Positions 1,765 through 11,859 of a stretch of 11,859 nt of DNA are shown here, piece after piece. The DNA lies in the NCBI GenBank assembly GCA_003525045.1, contig DQGF01000526.1, forward strand, positions 1 to 11,859, in the 5' to 3' direction. Below the pieces are notes generated by a model. The model searched no databases and was not told where the DNA came from. It was given only the letters and a program-made list of their open reading frames with translations. Position numbers and translations under genes: made by a program. This DNA comes from Pseudomonas sp. (GTDB taxonomy: Bacteria > Pseudomonadota > Gammaproteobacteria > Pseudomonadales > Pseudomonadaceae). Every line of letters begins with the position of its first letter. Position 1 is the first letter of the stretch.

Positions 1765-1857
1765 TCGCGCATGAGTGTTAGTCCGTTGAGACGATGTTCA
1801 GTACCTGCAAACACCCAATACTGGCCATACGAAAACCCCCACTCCATGAGGCCAGTC

Positions 1858-2841
1858 ATGGCAATGCAGAACATCAGCTTCGATCCCCAGGCATTTCGTG
1901 CCGCGCTCGGCACCTTCACCACCGGGGTCACGATTATCACCACCCAGACCGAAGACGGCTCACCCGTGGGCATCACCGCCAATAGCTTCAACTCGGTGTC
2001 GCTCAACCCACCGCTGGTGCTCTGGAGTCTGTCCAAGCAAGCCCGCAGCCTGCCGGTCTTCAGCAATGGCAAGCACTGGAACGTGCACGTGCTGTCCACG
2101 GAACAGGAGACCCTGTCGGGACGATTCGCCACCCAGGGCGAGGACAAGTTTGCCGAGATCGAACTGGACGATGGCGTCAGCGAGGCTCCGCTGCTGCAAG
2201 ACTGCACGGCGCGTTTCCAGTGCCGCACGGCGTTCCAGTATGAAGGCGGCGACCATGTGATCTTTGTCGGCGAAGTACTCGCGTTCGATCACAGTGACCG
2301 TGCGCCGCTGGCGTTCCAAAGTGGCCAATATGCATTGGCGACCCGCAAGCCGCGCAGCGAGCTGCGCCTGGCCACAACACCGCCACCGCCCGAGTGCAGT
2401 TATACCGAGGACTTGCTCGGCTACCTGCTGGGGCGCGGACATTACCAGGCGCTTAACGCGCTGCGGCAACTGTTGAATAGCCAGCAACTGGACGAACAAA
2501 CGTTTTTTGTTCTGTCGATTCTGTGTATCCGCGACAACTTGACCCTTGAGGAAATCAATACCTTTGTTAACTACACTGGCCGCGTAGTCACCCTGGCCAG
2601 CATGCGTTTTCTAGAACGTCAGCGCCTGGTGGCGTTCGAGGGCCCAGCGCAATCGCTTCGTTTTGTTCTCACGGCCCAGGGTCGCGAAGTTTCCGTGCAT
2701 CAACTGGCGCTGGCCAAGGCCGTGGAAGAGGACCTGGCCGCCAAGCTCGGTGCCGCCGACGCGCAAGCCTTGAAGGTCTTGCTCAAGCGGCTGATCGTCG
2801 TGAGTGATCCCGGCTTACCTGATCTGTGGGCACCGCGATGA
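1858..2841 (+). CDS. two-domain flavin reductase: FMN-binding reductase plus C-terminal MarR-like domain (C1-HPAH type)
   Basis: Predicted NAD(P)H:flavin oxidoreductase that supplies reduced flavin to a partner monooxygenase. Of 327 residues, about 1-165 form the flavin-reductase-like FMN-binding domain. Its landmarks are FRAALGTFTTGVTIIT near the start, GITANSFNSVSLNPPLVLW at about 38-56, and GDHVIFVGEV at 131-140. After a proline-rich linker (about 174-179), residues 181-315 look like a MarR-type winged helix. The same architecture is known in the reductase component C1 of Acinetobacter 4-hydroxyphenylacetate hydroxylase, where the MarR-like part binds the aromatic effector and relieves autoinhibition. 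The start at 1858 is chosen for GAGG (1848-1851) 6 bases upstream and because the family's N-terminus fits; in-frame starts lie upstream at 1771 and 1846. The stop overlaps the next gene by ATGA, implying translational coupling. No monooxygenase partner lies within the window. Confidence 0.85.
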   Translation: MAMQNISFDPQAFRAALGTFTTGVTIITTQTEDGSPVGITANSFNSVSLNPPLVLWSLSKQARSLPVFSNGKHWNVHVLSTEQETLSGRFATQGEDKFAEIELDDGVSEAPLLQDCTARFQCRTAFQYEGGDHVIFVGEVLAFDHSDRAPLAFQSGQYALATRKPRSELRLATTPPPPECSYTEDLLGYLLGRGHYQALNALRQLLNSQQLDEQTFFVLSILCIRDNLTLEEINTFVNYTGRVVTLASMRFLERQRLVAFEGPAQSLRFVLTAQGREVSVHQLALAKAVEEDLAAKLGAADAQALKVLLKRLIVVSDPGLPDLWAPR

Positions 2842-4166
2842 CTGTCCGCGCAGGCGTGTTGTTCCCGGCCAGGGTCGGCTGGGGCAGCCACGGTTTGCTG
2901 TTGGTGCTGGCCATGGTGTTTGCCGACAACTTCGTTGGGCGACAAATACTCGCGGTGATGGTCGAACCGATCAAATCCGAATTCGCAGTCAGCGACACCG
3001 CCATCGGGCTGATCTCAGGCTTGGCGTTCGCTGCAGTCTATGCGCTCATGGGCCTGCCGGCGGGGCGGTTGGTGGACCGCATGCCGCGTATTCGACTGCT
3101 GGCAATGTCTTGCCTTCTCTGGGCCCTGGCGACAATGGCTTGCGGGCTGGCAGGCAGCTTCCTTGCGCTGGCCATTGCGCGGATGCTGGTTGCAGTCAGC
3201 GAATCGCCGACGACTTCGGCCTCATTGTCGTTGATCGCCGACCTGTATCCACCACAACGACGCTCATTCGCCATCAGTTGTTTTACCGCGGCGCCCACGT
3301 TTTCCTCGATCATTGGCTTGAGTATCGGCGCATGGGTGGTGGAGCACTACGGCTGGCGCAGTGCGTTTATTGCCCTTGGCGTGCCAGCCTTGGTGTTTTG
3401 CACCATTCTGACTTTTTTCGTTCGCGACCCGCAGCGCGGCCGTTGGGACCTGCCGCCAAACTCTCACACGCAGCCTGCGCTGCTTGGCATGGGCGCCGAA
3501 GCGCGCAAGCTCTGGGCATTGCCAGCGTACCGTTGCCTGATTCTCGCGGGGGGACTGGCCACGCTCAGTTCCTATGCCCTTGGCATGTGGAACACCAGTT
3601 TCCTGGTGCGCTCCCATGGCTTGTCACTGCAACACGCGGGACTGCTGGCGGGAGTCATTTGCGGGACCTCGGCCGGAATGGGTGGCCTGCTCAGTGGTTG
3701 GTTATGTGACCGTCTGTGCCGGCGTAATCCACACTGGCAATTGTCCATTCCAATGGTGGGCCATCTGGCGGCCATCGCCGCGCTAATCCCTTATCTGCTT
3801 TGGTCCGATACCCTGCTGGTACGCTTTGGCAATGTGCCAATTCCGACTGCCATGCTCTGGTGCGCGCTCTATTCCTTCTTTGCGGTGTGGTGGGTCGCTC
3901 CGTCCTACAACCTCGTCACCCAACTGGTACCACCGGGTCGACGCGGTACCGCAATGGCTCTGCAAACCATCGTCAGCACGCTGCTCGGGGTGGGCGTCGG
4001 ACCCCTGCTAACCGGATTGTTCAGTGATATGTTGCTACCGCTGTTTGGCCAAGAGTCACTGCGGTATGCGCTACTGCTGGTGAACCTGCCGGTGATCTGC
4101 GCGGTGCTGTTACTCATTCGCACCGCGAACCATGCTTCCAGAACTAACTATCGCCACGCGGAATAA
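2838..4166 (+). CDS. MFS transporter, spinster-like/aromatic-acid type
   Basis: Inner-membrane secondary transporter of the major facilitator superfamily, 442 residues, with hydrophobic segments along its length consistent with 12 helices. The first helix is followed by FADNFVGRQILAVMVEPIK, then a canonical loop 2-3 motif, GLPAGRLVDRMPR, at about 72-84. DNF...RQ and GLISGLAFAAVYALMG resemble the spinster-like MFS branch often found beside catabolic genes for organic acids. I start at the ATG at 2838, which overlaps the reductase stop as ATGA; a GTG at 2826 is the in-frame alternative. No good ribosome binding site precedes it, so it is probably translated by coupling to the reductase. A role in taking up the aromatic or organic acid used by the reductase's oxygenase system is inference. 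It ends 189 bases before the convergent LysR gene, with no clear terminator between. Confidence 0.85.
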   Translation: MTVRAGVLFPARVGWGSHGLLLVLAMVFADNFVGRQILAVMVEPIKSEFAVSDTAIGLISGLAFAAVYALMGLPAGRLVDRMPRIRLLAMSCLLWALATMACGLAGSFLALAIARMLVAVSESPTTSASLSLIADLYPPQRRSFAISCFTAAPTFSSIIGLSIGAWVVEHYGWRSAFIALGVPALVFCTILTFFVRDPQRGRWDLPPNSHTQPALLGMGAEARKLWALPAYRCLILAGGLATLSSYALGMWNTSFLVRSHGLSLQHAGLLAGVICGTSAGMGGLLSGWLCDRLCRRNPHWQLSIPMVGHLAAIAALIPYLLWSDTLLVRFGNVPIPTAMLWCALYSFFAVWWVAPSYNLVTQLVPPGRRGTAMALQTIVSTLLGVGVGPLLTGLFSDMLLPLFGQESLRYALLLVNLPVICAVLLLIRTANHASRTNYRHAE

Positions 4167-4355: not shown

Positions 4356-5243
4356 CTAATAGGTGCTGTGCAAAAAGACCTTAAGCCGCTGCGCCAAGCT
4401 TTCCAGGGTCAGAGTGCTGTAATGCTGACGGTCCCACGCAGCATGCAGCGTAACGCCCAGTTCCACTTCTGGAGTACGTGGCGATGCCTGGATCAGCACG
4501 CCATGTAGCCCGTAGCTCGGCAAATCAGTCACGACACCCACTCCACGACCATTTGCAGCCAACGCCTGGATGATGGGTGATTGATCGCACTCCTCCACCG
4601 ACGAATACCGCAGCCCTTCGCGTGTCATGGCCAGATCCAGTTCAAGCCGACTGACGCTGGAACTGCTGGGCAATAACAAAGGTTGATCCGCCAGTTCGGC
4701 GAGCGTCACCATGCTCATCTTTTTGATAGCCCATGGGTGGTTGCTTCTCACATAGGCTCGAAGCGGTACCAGACCTAATTGCAGCGTGGCGCAATCCTGC
4801 TCAGGTGTGATTGGAGAGACCACCATGTCCATCCCGCCATGAAGCAGTTCGTGCAAACCGAAATGCGACGATTCGTGGGTGAGGATCAATGGATCCTCGA
4901 CCTTCAACGTGCTGATGAAAGGCGCGATCAAACCGGTGATCGTGGCATACGTCGCGCCTAGATGCAGACGCTTGATATGCCCCTTGGACCAGCTCTGTGC
5001 CGCTGCTTTTACCGAGCGTGCGTTGCTCAAAAGTTGCCGCGCCAAAGGCACCAATTCGCGACCGGCTGGCGTCAGCCGCAAGCGGTTGCGCTGATTATCG
5101 AATAGCTTGAAGCCCAGCTCGCCTTCGAAACTTTGTATTTGTCGACTTAGGGCCGGCTGCGCCATGTGCAATTGCGGGGCGGCAGCGGTGACCGTGCCAA
5201 AATCGACTACGGCGAGAAAACACTCGACACGGCGTAAGTTCAT
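4356..5243 (-). CDS. LysR-family transcriptional regulator
   Basis: DNA-binding regulator of 295 residues, normal for the family. The N-terminal winged helix-turn-helix covers about residues 1-60: LRRVECFLAVVDFGTVTAAA, then HMAQPALSRQIQSFE and LTPAGREL. The remainder is the substrate-binding-like effector domain. SFEGELG replaces the more usual LE-ELG in the wing region, a small oddity. I start at the ATG at 5243-5241, 5 bases after AAAGG. An in-frame ATG at 5264 has no usable ribosome binding site and adds residues before the conserved start. It lies downstream of the RidA gene in the same direction but is separated from it by a strong terminator, so it probably has its own promoter within the RidA 3' end. 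By position it is the likely regulator of the amino-acid oxidation operon; this is inference, since it is not divergent from its target as is common for the family. Confidence 0.9.
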   Translation of the reverse strand: MNLRRVECFLAVVDFGTVTAAAPQLHMAQPALSRQIQSFEGELGFKLFDNQRNRLRLTPAGRELVPLARQLLSNARSVKAAAQSWSKGHIKRLHLGATYATITGLIAPFISTLKVEDPLILTHESSHFGLHELLHGGMDMVVSPITPEQDCATLQLGLVPLRAYVRSNHPWAIKKMSMVTLAELADQPLLLPSSSSVSRLELDLAMTREGLRYSSVEECDQSPIIQALAANGRGVGVVTDLPSYGLHGVLIQASPRTPEVELGVTLHAAWDRQHYSTLTLESLAQRLKVFLHSTY

Positions 5244-5269
5244 AGCGCCTTTACCATTTTGCATTCCTG

Positions 5270-5300
5270 AAAAGAAGCGCAGCTCAGTGGCTGCGCTTTT
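5270..5300 (-). terminator. rho-independent terminator after the RidA gene
   Basis: A perfect 9-bp stem, AAGCGCAGC (5275-5283) with GCTGCGCTT (5290-5298), closes a 6-base loop. On the minus strand the stem is followed by CTTTTC (T-run 5273-5270), the form expected of an intrinsic terminator ending the operon about 15 bases after the RidA stop. The plus-strand side also has TTTT (5297-5300), so it could act weakly in both directions. It separates the enzyme operon from the LysR gene. Confidence 0.8.
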
Positions 5301-5314
5301 AGCGTATCAGTCGG

Positions 5315-5821
5315 TCAAGGACGTACCGCCGTGACTTCTATTTCAACCAGGTAGCCCGGATTGGCAAGGCCGGTCACTTGAAAAACCGACCGAGTGGGCA
5401 GCAGCGGTTGTTGTGCCGTGCCGAAAAACCGAGTGTAGCCGTTCATGAAACCGGCAAAATCCATTTTGCCCTGCTTCGCCGGATCCCCCACCAGGTACAC
5501 CTGCATCTTCACCACATCGCGCATCTCCAGGCCAAGGTTCTTCATTGTTTGCTCGATACCCTGCAGGACATTGACCGTCTGGGCCTGGGTATCACCATAG
5601 GCGGCGACACTGGTTTTGTCCTGATCGGCGTGGATCACCGACGGCACCGCCCCACTGAAGTTCACCAGCGTAGCGTTTGCCGGAATCTCGATGGCCAGCG
5701 CGACGGGGAAATCGGTCCCTGGAATTTTGTGACGGATCACTTCACTGGCATTGGCTTGAGCGAGCAGCATAAAGATTCCCAGACTGGCGGCGAGTGCCGG
5801 ATTGACGGAAGAACGGGGCAT
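5315..5821 (-). CDS. exported RidA-family (YjgF/UK114) protein, probable imine deaminase
   Basis: RidA proteins hydrolyse reactive 2-imino acids and enamines to keto acids and ammonium. This one has 168 residues against roughly 130 for cytosolic RidA. The extra length is an N-terminal signal peptide (MPRSSVNPALAASLGIF..., hydrophobic to about 20, likely cut after AQANA), so it should be periplasmic. The RidA core follows: NFSGAVPSV at 54-62, QTVNVLQGIEQTMKNLGL at 81-98, the conserved active-site Arg at about 144 in LPTRS, and Glu at about 162 in VEIEVTAV. I prefer the ATG at 5821 because GAGAGA lies 6 bases upstream. An in-frame ATG at 5854 overlaps the cytochrome stop as ATGA and would add 11 residues to the signal peptide; it has no ribosome binding site but would allow coupling. 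It is the last gene of the operon. Its place after an amine-oxidising flavoprotein suggests that it processes that enzyme's imine product. Confidence 0.85.
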   Translation of the reverse strand: MPRSSVNPALAASLGIFMLLAQANASEVIRHKIPGTDFPVALAIEIPANATLVNFSGAVPSVIHADQDKTSVAAYGDTQAQTVNVLQGIEQTMKNLGLEMRDVVKMQVYLVGDPAKQGKMDFAGFMNGYTRFFGTAQQPLLPTRSVFQVTGLANPGYLVEIEVTAVRP

Positions 5822-5850
5822 CGAAATTCTCTCTATTAAATTTGGCAAAC

Positions 5851-6246
5851 TCATCGGCCGGTTAATGCCTTAACCGTTGCCATGTTGACCGGTTCATTGA
5901 ATGCATTGCCGTTGTGCGTGCGGATGTAGGTCACCACCGCCGCAATCTGTTCATCGTCCAGGAAACTCTTGAAAGCAGGCATGCCGCCCTGCCCTTGAGC
6001 CACCATGAAAACGGGATAGGCGTCTGCTGATAATCGCGGATTGTTGGCCAGGGCCGGATACGCGCCTGCACCTTGCGCGCCTTGGCCTTGAGCCATGTGG
6101 CAGCCTTGGCAAATGGCCTTGAACAGATTTTCGCCCTCTCGTTGTTCGAAATGCTTGCCAGGGGCAGACACTTGCGGATCGAGTGCATTTGCCTGCACGC
6201 TCGCCACCGAAATCAACAACACCGAGGCAGAATAAAGTCGTTTCAT
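5851..6246 (-). CDS. small exported class I c-type cytochrome
   Basis: Periplasmic mono-haem electron carrier of 131 residues. It has a signal peptide (MKRLYSASVLLISVASVQANA, likely cut near residue 21), one haem-binding motif CQGCH with Cys46, Cys49 and axial His50, and a likely axial Met89 in GQGGMPAF, followed by the usual C-terminal helix (DDEQIAAVVTYIRTH). The ATG at 6246-6244 is preceded at 6 bases by AGGAG (6257-6253), which overlaps the stop codon of the upstream oxidase gene; the gap between the genes is only 10 bases. This tight pairing suggests it accepts electrons from the flavoprotein. There is precedent: the nicotine oxidoreductase NicA2 of P. putida S16 uses a cytochrome c encoded nearby instead of oxygen. 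The RidA gene follows at once. The fold and haem site are clear; the electron-donor partner is inferred. Confidence 0.92.
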   Translation of the reverse strand: MKRLYSASVLLISVASVQANALDPQVSAPGKHFEQREGENLFKAICQGCHMAQGQGAQGAGAYPALANNPRLSADAYPVFMVAQGQGGMPAFKSFLDDEQIAAVVTYIRTHNGNAFNEPVNMATVKALTGR

Positions 6247-6256
6247 GGTTAGCTCC

Positions 6257-7861
6257 TCAGGCCTTGGCGGTCTGGTGTCCGACGATGTGCGCATGCAGGC
6301 GGGTGATAGCGTCCTGTGCCGAAAGAATTGCGCCTTCCTGCCACGCTGGCAGTTGCGAGGCGTGTTCACCGGCAAGTACCAGACGCCCATCGATCTGACA
6401 CAGATTGTTGTAGTGTGCTGCGCGCGAAGCCTCGGTCCAGGCCCCGTAACACCCGTTGCTCCAAGGCACGCGATGCCAGCCAACAGCGATACCGTTGTCG
6501 AATTCGACCGGATACTGCGCGTGAACCTGACTGCCGTATTCGACGGATTTTCTGATCCGTTCTTCAGGCGTCATTGCCGTGAATTCGAAGGCGTTGTTGT
6601 TTTCCCAGAGGTAGCCCCCGAGTAAAACGCCTTTGCCGCGACTGCCATAATCGCAATTGGGATAACCAATCTGCTGCATGGGTGAATCTGTGTAGCTCAC
6701 CCCGCCATAAATATGTTCGTCCTGTTCCCAGAAACGTCTTTTGAACTGCAAGCCAATCTTGACCGATGCGTTGTAAGGCACCGCCCGAATGGCTGCCAGC
6801 ATCGGCGCGGCGCAATCGACAGGGATTTGGCTGAGGATCGACAACGGCAGTGTGCACACGCACCAATCGGCTTTTTCCTGGCGAGGTTGGCCGCCCTGGC
6901 TGCTTTCACAGGTGACCGTCACCCCTTGATCGTTCTGCTGGATGCGGGTGACTTTGCTATTGAACTGGATCAAGCCTTCGAGCTGGCGAGCGAACGCCTG
7001 GGCGATCATGTCCATCCCCCCCACGGGCTGAAACAGCGAGGTCTGGAACTCATGCAACTGACCGACCATGAGGTACAGCCACATGCCTGATTGGAGCAGC
7101 GCCTGACGATCGATGATTTCCGAGGGTTGGGCCGCAGGCATCAGACCGCCACCGGCATCCACGGCAAAGCCGCGACGCAGGCTGGTGTTTGGCGATTTCC
7201 GGTACTCATTGCCAGCATCGAGCCCGGCCCATACACGCAGGCTTTCCAGTAGTTTTTGCCGATCTTCGGCAGTGACTTCCTGATCCAGCGCCCCTTGGTT
7301 GACCGCCTTGCTCAACAGCTCGGCAATATGCCCCTGGTAATCGGCCTGGACTTCACGATAACGCTTGGGTTTGCCGCCGAACGCCTGACTGTTATGGACC
7401 AGAGCGTTATGGTTGACCTGTACGAAGGGTTCGAGCTTGACCTCGAATTTTTTGCAGTAATCAAGAATGGCATGGTGATGGTAGGGAATTCGCCAAGGCC
7501 CCGGATTGAAATAAAGCCCCTGATCAAAATGGCAATCCTGAACTGCGCCCCCTAACTCGGTGAAGCGATCACCACCACGCAGGGTCCAACAGCGACCTCC
7601 GGCCTTCGCGTTGTATTCCAGCACTTTGACCTTGTAACCTGCCTGGCGCAGTTCATAAGCAGCCGTCATGCCTGCCAGACCAGCCCCCAAGACCAGTACC
7701 GTCGTACCTTTTGGCGCCTGGCTCAGCTTGAAATCACCGGTATAAGTCGACTCACCGGCAAAGCTCAAGGCGCTCATGGCCTGGTACATCGCGGCCGCAC
7801 CGGCGGTGTTGCCAATCCAGCGCAGCAACGTGCGCCGTGTCACTTTAGCTTGATCGATCAT
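6257..7861 (-). CDS. Tat-exported FAD-dependent amine/L-amino acid oxidase-family dehydrogenase
   Basis: Flavoprotein of the amino oxidase family, 534 residues. A twin-arginine signal is visible (TRRTLLRW at 8-15, then a hydrophobic stretch to about 35), so it should be exported folded with FAD bound. The FAD domain begins with VLVLGAGLAGM (55-65), Glu82 for the ribose and AGGRC at 87-91. Lys368 in ASVKIGLQF matches the conserved flavin-N5 lysine, and GEHAS (498-502) with WQEG (507-510) closes the FAD site. Arg124 in NPGPWRIP sits where L-amino acid oxidases and tryptophan monooxygenase place the arginine that grips the substrate carboxylate, so an alpha-amino acid substrate is likely (inference from memory). 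Its ATG overlaps the M20 gene stop as ATGA, and the cytochrome gene follows after 10 bases. It may therefore act as a cytochrome-linked dehydrogenase making an imine rather than as a peroxide-producing oxidase. The exact substrate is unknown. Confidence 0.88.
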   Translation of the reverse strand: MIDQAKVTRRTLLRWIGNTAGAAAMYQAMSALSFAGESTYTGDFKLSQAPKGTTVLVLGAGLAGMTAAYELRQAGYKVKVLEYNAKAGGRCWTLRGGDRFTELGGAVQDCHFDQGLYFNPGPWRIPYHHHAILDYCKKFEVKLEPFVQVNHNALVHNSQAFGGKPKRYREVQADYQGHIAELLSKAVNQGALDQEVTAEDRQKLLESLRVWAGLDAGNEYRKSPNTSLRRGFAVDAGGGLMPAAQPSEIIDRQALLQSGMWLYLMVGQLHEFQTSLFQPVGGMDMIAQAFARQLEGLIQFNSKVTRIQQNDQGVTVTCESSQGGQPRQEKADWCVCTLPLSILSQIPVDCAAPMLAAIRAVPYNASVKIGLQFKRRFWEQDEHIYGGVSYTDSPMQQIGYPNCDYGSRGKGVLLGGYLWENNNAFEFTAMTPEERIRKSVEYGSQVHAQYPVEFDNGIAVGWHRVPWSNGCYGAWTEASRAAHYNNLCQIDGRLVLAGEHASQLPAWQEGAILSAQDAITRLHAHIVGHQTAKA

Positions 7862-9201
7862 GACGACTTGGCTCCCAACCCCGCGAGCAGTGGATAGTTG
7901 AGAACGAACTCGACATGGGCCCGCACACCGGTCTTCAGCGTGGCATCGTCGACGGTAAAAAACGGGCTGTGATTGACGGGCGCTTTGAGCATGTCCTGAT
8001 CGGGAGATGTCGCTCCCAGGAACACGAACAGTGCAGGGACCCTTTTGGCGTAATGGGCGAAGTCTTCACTCGCGGGTGAGAAATTCGGTGTGATTTTCGC
8101 GTTGCCGTCCGCAGCCTTCTTCATCGACGCGGCCATCATTCGGGTCAGGCGCTTGTCGTTCATCAGGACCGGTGCGTATTCCGCGAGCTCGACTTTTGCT
8201 GCGACACCATTGGCTTGGGCGACGTGTTCGATCATCGGCGGCAACTGGTTCAGGATGCCGTTACGGATCTCGTTGTCGTTAGTACGCACCGTGCCAAGCA
8301 TCGACAAGGTGTCAGGAATGATGTTGCCAACCGTTCCGGCGTTGATTGCACCAATCGTGATGACCCCCATGCCTTGACTCAGGTCAGCGCGACGACTGAT
8401 CAGGGTCTGCAATGCAGTGATCATCTGTGCACTGGCAACTACCGGATCCGCGCCTTTCCAGGGCATCGAGCCATGCACTTGTCGTCCACTTACGGTAATG
8501 CGCAGGCCATCGGCACTGTTGAGAATAGGTCCGGGCTTGTAGCGAATTTGTCCGCTCGGCAGCCCGGCCATGACGTGCAAGCCGAAGATGGCTTCAACTT
8601 TTGGGTTGTCCAGCGCGCCTTCGGCAATCATTTTCCGCGCACCGATTTCTGCGCCTTGGGTGAAGTTATCGATGTTCGCGCCACCCTCCTCGGCTGGCTG
8701 AAACACAAATACCACGGTGCCCGCAATCTGGTCACGGTGGTCAGCCAGCAGCTTCGCCGCACCCAGCAACATCGCGGTATGAGCATCGTGCCCACAGGCA
8801 TGCATGACCGGAACTTCCTTGCCCTGGTATTGCGCCCGGGCGGTGCTCGCGAAGGCCAGCCCCACAGGTTCCTGCACCGGCAACGCGTCCATGTCGGCGC
8901 GTAACGCCATGACCGGTCCTGGCTTGCCGCCCTTAAGGACACCGATGACTCCGGTATTAGCGACGTGGGTACGAACTTCGATGCCCAGTGATTTCAAACG
9001 CTCAGCAACCAACTTTGAAGTTTCAAACTCTTGATTGCCCAACTCGGGATGCTGGTGGATCCTGTGTCGCAGCGCGATTACGGCGGGCTCTTCCTGCAAG
9101 GCAGAGGCTTTGACCCAGTCATCGGGCTCGCTGGCTTGCGACGCCGTGTTGACGGCAGCGGTAAGCATTGAAACGAACAGCATCGGATAGATGGATTTCA
9201 T
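7858..9201 (-). CDS. exported M20-family metallo-amidohydrolase (hippurate/IAA-amino acid hydrolase type)
   Basis: Predicted zinc- or manganese-type hydrolase that removes an acyl group from an N-acyl amino acid. The 447-residue protein starts with a Sec signal peptide (MKSIYPMLFVSMLTAAV..., likely cut near residue 23), so it is periplasmic; most family members are cytosolic. Metal and catalytic residues are present: Cys136 and His138 in MHACGHDAHTAM, Glu171-Glu172 in QPAEEGG, His209 in GLHVMAG, SPASEDFA at 375-382 and His411 in NHSPFF. The dimerisation domain occupies roughly residues 226-335. I start at the ATG at 9201-9199, which begins the signal peptide and has AAAGAG about 8 bases upstream; an in-frame start at 9303 would spoil the export signal. 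The stop overlaps the amine oxidase start (ATGA), so the two are coupled: the free amino acid released here is probably that enzyme's substrate. The acyl group and amino acid are not determinable from sequence. Confidence 0.9.
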   Translation of the reverse strand: MKSIYPMLFVSMLTAAVNTASQASEPDDWVKASALQEEPAVIALRHRIHQHPELGNQEFETSKLVAERLKSLGIEVRTHVANTGVIGVLKGGKPGPVMALRADMDALPVQEPVGLAFASTARAQYQGKEVPVMHACGHDAHTAMLLGAAKLLADHRDQIAGTVVFVFQPAEEGGANIDNFTQGAEIGARKMIAEGALDNPKVEAIFGLHVMAGLPSGQIRYKPGPILNSADGLRITVSGRQVHGSMPWKGADPVVASAQMITALQTLISRRADLSQGMGVITIGAINAGTVGNIIPDTLSMLGTVRTNDNEIRNGILNQLPPMIEHVAQANGVAAKVELAEYAPVLMNDKRLTRMMAASMKKAADGNAKITPNFSPASEDFAHYAKRVPALFVFLGATSPDQDMLKAPVNHSPFFTVDDATLKTGVRAHVEFVLNYPLLAGLGAKSS

Positions 9202-9315
9202 AGGAACACTCTTTAACGAACAGGCACACCTCTCCCGCTCTTGACGACGCCAGAGAAACCATACGTGTTGAAAAAAAGGGTAATCGCCGTGCTGGCCAAT
9301 CACCCTGAGGAAAGC

Positions 9316-10644
9316 TCAGTCAGGCTGGTGGCGCGTCACGAACAACGTGATGATCGTGGCGCACAGCGAGATGGCGGCGATAAGGCTGAGGAGCAGCGCA
9401 GGCCCCCATGACTTGCCATCCGAAAGCATCAGGAACCCTGTGGCCAATGCCGGCATGAACCCCGCTATCAAGCCGGAAAGGTTGGCCGACAACCCCAGGC
9501 CGCTGTAATGCAGATGCGGTGGAAACAAGCGGGTCAGCACATTGCCGATAGGCGCGTAGGCCACCGTCGCCAACCCCAGGCCAAGGACCATGGCAAGGTT
9601 GATGTACATGGGTTCACGGGTATCGACCAGCCAGAACATCGGGAATGCCAACACCAGGGTAATGATGTAGCCGATGATTACCGTTTGCGTCGCGCCAATA
9701 CGGTCGGCCAGCTTGCCGGACACCACCAGGGTGACCATTTGCATGAGCGCACCACAGGTCAACGCCGTGAGAATGACGTGGCTGGGCAAGTTCAGCGTCT
9801 TGGTGACATAGCTGATCATGAACGCGGTAATGATGAAGAAACCAGCATTGCAATAAAGGTAAGTGGCGATGCCCAACACTAGCCGTCCCGGGACTTGGCG
9901 GAACAGTTCGAGCACCGGCATTTTTTCGGTTTTGTTCTCGCTGGCCAGTTGTTGGAAAGCCGGGGTTTCTTCGACTTTCCAGCGCAACCACAGCGCTACG
10001 CCGACCAACACGATGGACACCGCAAACGGCACACGCCAGGCCCACTCCAAGAAGGCGTCACCCGGCAAAGAAGCGGCCAGGGCGACGGCACCCGACGACA
10101 GCAAGGTGCCCGTCGGCGAGCCCAATTGCACGATGGCTGCGTACAACCCGCGTTTTTTCGGCGGCGCGTATTCGATCGCCAGCAAGGTCGCTCCGCCCCA
10201 CTCTCCACCGGCAGCAATACCTTGCACGGCACGCAGGATAGTCAACAGGATGGGCGCGACGATTCCGGCCGTGGCGTAAGTCGGCAGAAAACCGATCATG
10301 GTCGTCGCCAGCCCCATCATCAGTACCGTGATGACTAATGCACTGCGCCGGCCATACTTGTCACCGATATGCCCGAAAATCACGGCCCCCAGCGGACGAG
10401 CAGCGAAGCCGACACCGAAACTTAAAAACGCGCCCATCACCGAAATGGCGGGGACGTCACCCGGAAAAAACAGCGGAGCGAACACAATCGCGGCCACGGT
10501 GCCGAACAGGAAAAAGTCGTACCACTCCAGGGCAGTTCCGATATAAGCAGCGATCACGATCTTGCGTGTCTGCGCCGCATCGAAACTGACCGGGGTCGAA
10601 GCTGGCCCGTCTGTCGAACTCACGGGGAGCGTAGTGGATTTCAT
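9316..10644 (-). CDS. MHS-family metabolite:H+ symporter (MFS)
   Basis: Inner-membrane proton symporter of the metabolite:H+ symporter branch of the MFS (ProP, ShiA, KgtP relatives), 442 residues with 12 predicted helices after a soluble N-terminus of about 28 residues. The branch hallmark ALEWYDFFLFGT is at 38-49, the loop 2-3 motif GHIGDKYGRR at 91-100, and ILRAVQGIAAGGEWGGATLLAIE, with the usual GGEWGG, follows the fourth helix. The ATG at 10644-10642 has GGAG about 5 bases upstream. It lies between the porin gene (50-base gap, no terminator seen) and the M20 gene (114-base gap), all in one direction. Family substrates are carboxylates such as 2-oxoglutarate, shikimate and citrate, so import of the keto acid or acyl acid made in the periplasm is a reasonable inference. 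Import of the intact conjugate seems less needed, given the exported enzymes. Confidence 0.92.
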   Translation of the reverse strand: MKSTTLPVSSTDGPASTPVSFDAAQTRKIVIAAYIGTALEWYDFFLFGTVAAIVFAPLFFPGDVPAISVMGAFLSFGVGFAARPLGAVIFGHIGDKYGRRSALVITVLMMGLATTMIGFLPTYATAGIVAPILLTILRAVQGIAAGGEWGGATLLAIEYAPPKKRGLYAAIVQLGSPTGTLLSSGAVALAASLPGDAFLEWAWRVPFAVSIVLVGVALWLRWKVEETPAFQQLASENKTEKMPVLELFRQVPGRLVLGIATYLYCNAGFFIITAFMISYVTKTLNLPSHVILTALTCGALMQMVTLVVSGKLADRIGATQTVIIGYIITLVLAFPMFWLVDTREPMYINLAMVLGLGLATVAYAPIGNVLTRLFPPHLHYSGLGLSANLSGLIAGFMPALATGFLMLSDGKSWGPALLLSLIAAISLCATIITLFVTRHQPD

Positions 10645-10694
10645 GGGTACTCCGGTTTTTTATGCTGTTATTAGTGTTTACGGGCTGCGGCGGA

Positions 10695-11859
10695 TCAGAA
10701 AATGTTGAAAGGCACGTTGACGATCAGGCGAAACTCTTCAAGGTTGCCTTCGATTTGGTTTTCGCTCGCGCGATGCCAGGCATAACCACTGAGTAGATTG
10801 ACGCCTTTCAACTGCCCTGACTGGACGACATAACTGACGAAGGTTCCAACCTCATAGTGGCTTTCGTCACTCTGCTTGAGCACAGACGAATAGATGCCGT
10901 CGGGCCCTCCATCATAGTGAGTTCCATCAATTCCCCAGCCCTTGATGTACCAGAGGATGGTCTTGAAACCTGGAAAACCATACGCCGCGAAATCATTGAT
11001 GTAATTGACCTGGAATGAGCGTTCATTGGGGCCGTTGTAATACGAGAGCATGGTGTTTGGCAGATTGATCGCATTCGATTCGGCCACATAGTCGAAGTAC
11101 TCATCACCCTTGATCTGCTGCAGGCCAAATTTCAGCGTGTGGTTCTTGTAAACAGGTGTAATGCTCAGGCCATAAGCCTGCTGGTCGATAGTCCCAGCCA
11201 CTTCCCGGCCACTGGACTGGGTGTTGTAGAAGTCAAACTGGATATCTGTTGTGATTTCATCCCATTTGAATTTCTGTCCCAGCCCCACGTATTCACGATC
11301 CCAAATGTCCTCGAAACGCGAGACGTAAGCACTGGCGCGCCAGCCATTGCTGGCCAGGTAGTCGGCGCCGGCGTAAGCCACCCAGTCACTGGTGACCCGT
11401 CGAGTGCCGAAACTGGGCGTCAAATCCTGACTGCCTGCGCCGGTGCGCGGCGTAGCCCTGTCAAAGTACCCGGACTTGATCGTCAGGCCCTCAACGTCAT
11501 GACTTTCCAGCGAGACACCGTCGAATGCTGCCGGAAGCGTGCGTGTATCGGAATAACCCATCACGGGTGTCTTGACCTGGTGCCTGCCGACTTTCAGCAC
11601 CGTGTCGGATACTTTGAATTTCAGCGCCGCGACACCCATCTTGCTCCAGTCATCAACCACGTCGCCGTCTTTGTCGACCAACAGACGGTTGCTCCCACCG
11701 GCGGTCGCCAGTTTGCCGCGTTCAAGAGCAACGGCAGAGTACGCCGACAGATCAAGGCCGAAACCGACCATGCCTTGGGTGAATCCGGACACATAATCAA
11801 GCTTGAAACCCTCAAGCCAGGCCGTGCGGTCGCGCACGGCCCGCCGCCCTTCAGATGTT
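10695..11859 (-). CDS. OprD-family outer-membrane porin (5' end beyond the window)
   Basis: Substrate-selective outer-membrane channel of the Pseudomonas OprD family. About 387 residues are visible; the frame is open to the window edge (...SEGRRAVRDRTAWLEGFKLDYVSGFTQG), so the signal peptide and first residues, perhaps 30-50 in all, are missing. The GTG at 11837 is internal, not the start. Features seen are alternating beta-strand residues throughout, VGRHQVKTPVMGYSDTRTLP with the following FDGVSLES (an OprD hallmark region), a late YYNGPNERS segment, and a C-terminal phenylalanine (VNVPFNIF) as required for assembly by the BAM machinery. It appears to be the promoter-proximal gene seen here of the operon running through the MHS symporter, M20 hydrolase, oxidase, cytochrome and RidA genes. 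OprD relatives take up amino acids, dipeptides and aromatic acids, which fits entry of an N-acyl amino acid; this specificity is inferred. Confidence 0.93.
   Translation of the reverse strand, partial: TSEGRRAVRDRTAWLEGFKLDYVSGFTQGMVGFGLDLSAYSAVALERGKLATAGGSNRLLVDKDGDVVDDWSKMGVAALKFKVSDTVLKVGRHQVKTPVMGYSDTRTLPAAFDGVSLESHDVEGLTIKSGYFDRATPRTGAGSQDLTPSFGTRRVTSDWVAYAGADYLASNGWRASAYVSRFEDIWDREYVGLGQKFKWDEITTDIQFDFYNTQSSGREVAGTIDQQAYGLSITPVYKNHTLKFGLQQIKGDEYFDYVAESNAINLPNTMLSYYNGPNERSFQVNYINDFAAYGFPGFKTILWYIKGWGIDGTHYDGGPDGIYSSVLKQSDESHYEVGTFVSYVVQSGQLKGVNLLSGYAWHRASENQIEGNLEEFRLIVNVPFNIF

Follow-up and report, generated by a model that had tools for sequence, protein, structure and literature searches.

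A predicted periplasmic amino-acid deamination module within an uptake-and-breakdown gene cluster of Pseudomonas and Geopseudomonas

Introduction

What is the task of a run of genes that joins an outer membrane porin and an inner membrane transporter to four apparently exported enzyme-like proteins, and on which side of the inner membrane would it be carried out? This question is raised by an 11,859-nucleotide stretch of Pseudomonas sp. DNA (assembly GCA_003525045.1, contig DQGF01000526.1, here C197), referred to as the window, which constitutes the first 11,859 of the 15,002 bases of its contig in an assembly of 610 contigs with approximately 80% completeness. Its minus strand carries six codirectional genes, encoding an OprD-family porin, a metabolite:H+ symporter (MHS)-type transporter, an M20 amidohydrolase, a flavin amine oxidase (FAO)-type flavoenzyme, a cytochrome c, and a Rid protein. 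A sequence-only reading had interpreted them as a complete, extracytoplasmic pathway dedicated to N-acyl amino acids. The six gene families named there were recovered by family matches (Table 1).

On balance, we lean toward a two-compartment pathway: amino acids would be deaminated in the periplasm with a cytochrome c as electron acceptor, the resulting 2-oxo acids imported, and their breakdown completed in the cytosol. From gene content, gene order, relationships, motifs, and phylogeny we infer every reaction, transport direction, and localization in this scheme. The porin would admit the substrate. Cleavage of an N-acyl or peptide-like amide by the exported M20 amidohydrolase would then set an amino acid free; this step would be optional, being absent from one orthologous cluster. 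Oxidation of the amino acid to an imino acid would fall to the Tat-exported flavoenzyme, the small cytochrome c would carry the electrons to the respiratory chain, and imine hydrolysis by the exported Rid3 protein would yield ammonium and a 2-oxo acid. Import of the 2-oxo acid would rely on the MHS symporter, and a decarboxylase, an aldehyde dehydrogenase (ALDH), and an ArgE/DapE-type deacylase, all encoded beyond the window, would complete its cytosolic breakdown, with a LysR-family protein regulating the cluster. We would guess, weakly, that the side chain of the substrate is polar or acylated. If the enzymes are extracytoplasmic dehydrogenases, amino-acid nitrogen would be released and electrons would be gained before uptake, which would change the modeling of amino-acid use and of auxin-like 2-oxo acids in soil and plant bacteria.

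Results and Discussion

The flavoenzyme, cytochrome c, and Rid genes form a recurrent core

In the window, the genes for an L-amino acid oxidase (LAAO)-type flavoenzyme, a cytochrome c, and a Rid protein are adjacent and codirectional, as in a lao-type module. The flavoenzyme matched 2jae best both by sequence and by fold, and its LAAO fold together with the carboxylate-binding Arg and Tyr, plus a Lys, places it in the LAAO group; the roles of these residues are described in PMC9331233 and PMC10331595 (here and below, statements on cited papers refer to the portions of their text available to us). NicA2 was absent among the 50 structure-comparison entries listed. In its own genome, the flavoenzyme had one full match, the four further matches being partial and 29 to 46% identical.

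We compared the best 80 of at least 580 confirmed flavoenzyme relatives in named genomes (56 to 94% identity), whose loci were read by six-frame searches and a codon-usage gene finder and whose neighbors were counted by domain coordinates. A cytochrome c gene lies directly downstream of the flavoenzyme gene at 79 of these 80 loci, the exception being L047 (L, G, and C numbers denote loci, genomes, and contigs), and all 79 cytochromes contain CxxCH. A Rid gene is present at 48 loci, with the cytochrome and Rid genes occurring together at 48 of the 80. Since 31 of the loci without a detected Rid gene extend for at least 3.6 kb after the flavoenzyme, Rid appears as a common, not a constant, partner at the sensitivity of our search.

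Export signals were judged by eye and with simple scripts and are thus motif-based predictions. The N termini of the M20 amidohydrolase (MKSIYPMLFVSMLTAAVNTASQAS), the cytochrome (MKRLYSASVLLISVASVQANA), and the Rid protein (MPRSSVNPALAASLGIFMLLAQANA) read as Sec-like, and that of the flavoenzyme as Tat-like (TRRTLLRWIGNTAGAAA), in agreement with the export signals previously noted on these four enzyme-like proteins. A Tat-type RR motif was found in all 80 named FAO relatives and by a stricter pattern in 78; the looser pattern, the one applied to the control, also matched 42 of 480 control windows taken from these proteins.

The flavoenzyme thus has a predicted Tat signal and an adjacent cytochrome c with a predicted Sec signal (by eye for the window cytochrome), as do cytochrome c-using FAO dehydrogenases. 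Because of this pairing, the flavoenzyme is likely a cytochrome c-linked dehydrogenase rather than an oxidase, with the cytochrome c as its likely electron acceptor. The fold would also suit a true periplasmic oxidase that generates H2O2 from amino acids for competition or defense, the cytochrome c acting as scavenger, considering that L-amino acid oxidases are known H2O2 producers. However, the cytochrome c gene is adjacent at 79 of 80 loci, an association linked with dehydrogenase behavior in other FAOs (PMC12224317), and the porin, symporter, decarboxylase, and ALDH are catabolic neighbors, so that we regard H2O2 production as very improbable.

The third core component had been labeled RidA, which its score against the RidA model does not sustain (TIGR00004, 37 bits versus 106). 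Its nearest solved chains are 9bka (E = 5e-32) and 9bkc (E = 3e-30), the next solved chain following at 1.5e-4. These two structures belong to PFL_1385 and PSPTO_3006, which are Rid3 imine deaminases (PMC5619798). The catalytic Arg and Glu are retained in 58 of 58 compared Rid proteins, including 48 of 48 homologs from named loci. We therefore assign the protein to the Rid3 subfamily, given its proximity to known Rid3 proteins and the conserved catalytic Arg. The Rid proteins encoded after the cytochrome at L011 to L017, L028, and L030 have a lipobox-like leader (TAGC, TTGC, NTGC, or LAGC), and these proteins may be lipoproteins.

Upstream of the flavoenzyme the surroundings vary. Thirty-five of the 80 named loci have a same-strand gene within 400 bp, among them L006, where an M20 gene adjoins the flavoenzyme gene, the only such case among the 80. 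In the other 34, which were scanned, the gene encodes a TonB-dependent receptor nine times and a GNAT acetyltransferase six times and is otherwise of mixed type, among the 25 of 37 families listed. The TonB-dependent receptor at L051 and eight further loci is possibly a counterpart of the porin.

A subset of flavoenzyme genes is embedded in a conserved cluster

Including its own genome, the flavoenzyme occurred in 9 of 398 genomes of the genus (5 of 298 in an earlier draw) and in 7 of 198 genomes of a draw from the family. Together, both draws contain 15 different genomes with the flavoenzyme, seven of which carry a porin-MHS-flavoenzyme cluster: its own genome, G208 (L126), G292 (L127), G503 (L205), G567 (L206), G382 (L128), and G375 (L129). 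As far as they were read, G151, G256, G529, G496, G333, G367, G441, and G471 lack the cluster; G496 was classed by means of L021, the gene finder having called nothing around its flavoenzyme. With L006 from Pseudomonas sp. ERMR1:02, the seven carriers provide eight cluster loci.

Genes for the ArgE/DapE-type deacylase, porin, MHS transporter, flavoenzyme, cytochrome, Rid protein, and LysR-type regulator are present at all eight; several are split into two frames in L006, and Geopseudomonas has the same cluster genes in a rearranged order. In G503, the flavoenzyme gene is distributed over three frames with two in-frame TGA codons (L205:5451-7046), reflecting assembly error or decay.

The predicted periplasmic amidohydrolase is frequent in the cluster and was probably swapped

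The M20 protein scored 338 bits against TIGR01891 (cut-off, 154), and its CGHD, PAEE, and LH motifs align to YxeP and 4ewt, indicating an M20 metal site; with 365 bits against a cut-off of 500, it is not assigned to the carboxypeptidase CpsA equivalog. Its gene lies directly upstream of the flavoenzyme gene at seven of the eight cluster loci, and in the window the two overlap by ATGA. This arrangement would suit a dedicated N-acyl amino acid pathway with the M20 reaction as its defining first step and acid import as its last, as would the solved M20 relatives, which include an indole-3-acetic acid (IAA)-amino acid hydrolase and an N-acyl-glutamine aminoacylase. In Geopseudomonas, moreover, an M20 protein from another branch occupies the same place, which might mean that an amidohydrolase in the periplasm has been called for repeatedly at this site. 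However, L127 retains the porin, MHS transporter, flavoenzyme, cytochrome, Rid protein, and regulator without the M20 gene, no M20 gene adjoins 79 of the 80 named FAO relatives, and the additional enzymes predicted in the cytosol suggest steps after import. M20 enzymes also cleave dipeptides and other amides. Hence the frequent presence of the M20 gene stands, and its reading as the mark of a dedicated N-acyl amino acid route is, in our judgment, rather unlikely.

A flavoenzyme tree of 34 sequences was built from the window, 20 named loci out of the 80, and 13 further loci or proteins. In it, L127 grouped with the loci that carry an M20 gene, nine members in total (support, 96/94); one of them, P0005, is counted as M20 bearing only because a contig of equal length (14160) encodes the M20 protein P0128. 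Because L127 nests inside this group, loss of the M20 gene is the simple reading. The M20 tree comprised 34 rows (5 from clusters, 10 stand-alone, and 19 of 120 listed homologs; one row long). Here the Geopseudomonas copies split from the M20 group of the window at a fork with 90/81 support, and placing them with that group was rejected by the approximately unbiased (AU) test (P = 0.00015), the group having been named after the tree was seen. Since the Geopseudomonas M20 proteins fall outside the lineage of the window M20, the amidohydrolase has probably been exchanged or acquired on more than one occasion at this locus. Signal-bearing M20 relatives are also encoded without a flavoenzyme, beside an OprD porin and an MHS transporter, at L138:7300-12653 and L143:5769-10114, and the MHS and M20 genes of L206 are separated by two genes resembling class II aldolase and GhrA, the latter below its cut-off (L206:6441-8158).

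Predicted cytosolic steps are encoded beyond the window

The window ends where the porin gene is truncated by a run of N (positions 11860 to 12166 of the contig). Past it follow an ArgE/DapE-type M20 deacylase gene (C197:12436-13737), whose product is 93% identical to that of G208 and has no visible signal peptide, and an ALDH gene in pieces among further N runs (C197:13897-15001, L188). A similar C-terminal ALDH region occurs there twice, from different sequences, and the assembly is therefore probably chimeric at this site. The end of contig C416 encodes residues 1 to 393 of a thiamine-diphosphate decarboxylase homolog with a full length of 549, and we place this contig next to C197 from the gene order in G208: decarboxylase, ALDH, deacylase, porin, MHS transporter, M20, FAO, cytochrome, Rid, and LysR. 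As the contig continues with further cluster genes, the operon is incomplete within the window, and the claim that a complete pathway lies there falls. Likewise, its placement wholly outside the cytoplasm fits the four export-signal-like enzymes but not the decarboxylase, ALDH, and deacylase, which are predicted to be cytosolic.

The decarboxylase gene was found at five of the eight cluster loci (its own genome on C416, L126, L127, L128, and L129), L006 and L205 being cut short on that side where the stretch or contig ends. The ALDH gene was found at five as well (its own genome in pieces, L126, L006, L128, and L129), L205 again being cut.

Decarboxylase and ALDH genes would be compatible with an indole-pyruvate route, and thus with an auxin or aryl-acetate pathway in which either IAA conjugates are cleaved by the M20 enzyme to release their amino acids or tryptophan is converted by the flavoenzyme to indole-3-pyruvate, with decarboxylase and ALDH then yielding indole-3-acetate. 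The match of the M20 protein to a plant IAA-amino acid hydrolase points the same way, as does the finding that lao insertions in Gluconacetobacter diazotrophicus abolish IAA formation from tryptophan (PMC5053998). However, the decarboxylase belongs to a broad acetolactate synthase-like family (PRK08199), with no indolepyruvate decarboxylase among the 25 of its 51 family matches listed, and the route leaves the cytosolic deacylase without a role. The cluster ALDH is nearest to PuuC, and the G208 copy shares 74% identity with a stand-alone PuuC/KauB-like ALDH from contig C15 of the window's own genome, a type tied to amino- or guanidino-aldehydes. We consider an auxin pathway improbable.

Similarity to arginine and polyamine routes, in which a 2-oxo-acid decarboxylase likewise accompanies a KauB/PuuC-like ALDH, is limited too. 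AruI is a guanidino-oxopentanoate decarboxylase. Two full-length decarboxylases scored 259 and 265 bits against the 5-guanidino-2-oxopentanoate decarboxylase model (cut-off, 500), two ALDHs scored 699 and 703 bits against PuuC (cut-off, 850), and no KauB-specific model matched. Moreover, unlike in the AruI/KauB/PuuC routes, deamination in the cluster would be performed by a predicted exported flavoenzyme.

Several observations weigh against the compartment-split pathway. The L127 cluster has no periplasmic M20 gene, although an M20 relative (60%) is encoded elsewhere in that genome, as is also the case in the window's own genome and in G208. No decarboxylase gene lies within 2.3 kb before the deacylase in L206, and the ALDH gene is absent beside the cluster in both L127 and L206. 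In the window's own genome, the decarboxylase gene is on another contig and the ALDH gene, broken among N runs, is possibly a chimera. Decarboxylase relatives at 43 to 48% identity had varied neighborhoods from which no substrate could be read (10 of 29 such loci fetched). Should the pathway require the cytosolic deacylase once import has taken place, deacylation might come before or after deamination. The MHS symporter, likely an importer of an organic acid, had its best match (TIGR00883) below the cut-off of 443 bits. No Rid gene was found at 32 of the 80 named loci, one of which, L019, ends 780 bases after the flavoenzyme. Finally, export of the cluster enzymes relies on motif reading and crude scripts, which detected a signal-like start in 39 of 58 Rid proteins (48 named, the window, and 9 others). 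Many misses are due to start codon choice, several having a leader recognizable by eye without a start codon that the script accepted, and the Rid protein of L127 failed the script although its leader is visible.

Relation to known systems

The core of the cluster has a published counterpart. The lao-cccA-ridA gene set of G. diazotrophicus PAL5, described in 2016, likewise combines an LAAO-type flavoprotein, a cytochrome c, and a Rid protein, for which a periplasmic site, electron transfer to the cytochrome, and a role in IAA synthesis from tryptophan were proposed (PMC5053998). Xanthomonas and Caulobacter were named there as sharing the lao cluster, and four Xanthomonas loci with cytochrome and Rid genes (L051, L056, L064, and L082) are among the relatives of the window flavoenzyme. 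We link both systems by gene content and this shared Xanthomonas cluster, not by sequence kinship with GDI2456. In contrast to the window, the available text on the lao cluster mentions no porin, MHS transporter, M20 protein, deacylase, decarboxylase, ALDH, or LysR-type regulator.

NicA2/Pnao-CycN and other cytochrome c-using FAOs resemble the window in having a Tat-exported FAO whose electron acceptor is a Sec-exported cytochrome c encoded next to it (PMC12224317 and PMC9396064). However, the FAOs in PMC12224317 are NicA2 relatives, and the window flavoenzyme is nearest to L-amino acid oxidases. For PFL_1385 and PSPTO_3006, the nearest solved relatives of the window Rid protein, which share its catalytic arginine, the accessible part of PMC5619798 mentions no link to a cytochrome-linked LAAO. 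A flavin monoamine oxidase is mentioned for Pseudomonas pseudoalcaligenes, in the portion available, without other cluster genes (PMC8567248). Within the open-licence PMC literature, judged by title and beginning of the abstract, the setting of the core among porin, MHS transporter, M20, deacylase, decarboxylase, and ALDH genes was not found. The earlier statement that no pathway with this exact set had been described therefore holds for the whole set in that literature but not for the three-gene core, which is already known; it is the embedding in an uptake-and-breakdown cluster for which we found no precedent there.

Tentatively, we extend this picture beyond the window. LAAO-type flavoenzymes with a dedicated cytochrome c, and often an exported Rid3 protein, may constitute a widespread system for respiratory periplasmic deamination in Proteobacteria and a few Campylobacteraceae. 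Within a single Pseudomonas/Geopseudomonas clade, it may have turned into the outer half of a pathway divided between compartments, with amide cleavage, deamination, and electron harvest outside and decarboxylation and aldehyde oxidation inside, the periplasmic amidohydrolase having been drafted in or swapped more than once. Bacterial proteins annotated as monoamine oxidase, tryptophan 2-monooxygenase, or flavin monoamine oxidase are probably, in many genomes, cytochrome-linked amino-acid dehydrogenases outside the cytoplasm. The clade provides a compact, testable gene set, including in L127 a natural version without the periplasmic amidohydrolase.

Gene layout of the window

Table 1. Features of the cluster within the window
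Feature	Position	Strand	Basis
OprD-family outer membrane porin	10695..11859	-	PF03573, 350 bits; 5' end cut by window end
MHS-type inner membrane transporter	9316..10644	-	TIGR00883, 377 bits, and shikimate transporter, 320 bits, both below cut-off
M20 amidohydrolase, Sec-type signal peptide, start ATG 9201	7858..9201	-	TIGR01891, above cut-off
LAAO-type flavoprotein, Tat-type signal (TRRTLLR)	6257..7861	-	PF01593; 2jae best match
Small single-heme cytochrome c (CQGCH), Sec-type signal peptide	5851..6246	-	PF13442
Predicted Rid3-type imine deaminase, signal peptide, start ATG 5821	5315..5821	-	PF01042; nearest solved chains 9bka, 9bkc
Intrinsic-terminator-like hairpin and T-tract between Rid and LysR genes	5270..5298	-	Fold, z -2.96
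LysR-family regulator	4356..5264	-	PF00126/PF03466

The genes are closely spaced, with gaps of 50 bp between the porin and MHS genes, 114 bp between the MHS and M20 genes, and 10 bp between the FAO and cytochrome genes. Of the ATGA overlaps reported earlier, the 4-base overlap of the M20 and FAO genes was confirmed, but that of the cytochrome and Rid genes is valid only for an upstream Rid start at 5854. We prefer ATG 5821, 29 bp past the cytochrome stop codon and preceded by a purine-rich stretch, because it yields a clean signal peptide.

A terminator had been taken to close the operon. The hairpin with its T-tract (5298-5275) is real, a 59-base stretch 3' of the Rid gene folding at -17.7 kcal/mol, but the LysR gene of the conserved cluster follows it on the same strand. 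The hairpin did not appear in the output of an automatic terminator scan; it recurs in L126 with one loop change and is not found in L127. The LysR protein, as a member of the conserved cluster, is its probable regulator.

The left part of the window holds three further genes. Two of them, encoding a flavin reductase and an MFS transporter, were not observed beside the cluster in L126, L127, or L206. The flavin reductase (1771-2841, plus strand) resembles the reductase of p-hydroxyphenylacetate 3-hydroxylase (219 of 340 bits), and the MFS transporter gene follows at 2826-4166 on the same strand. An ALDH encoded at 223-1692 on the minus strand is nearest to MdlD-type benzaldehyde dehydrogenase (290 of 550 bits).

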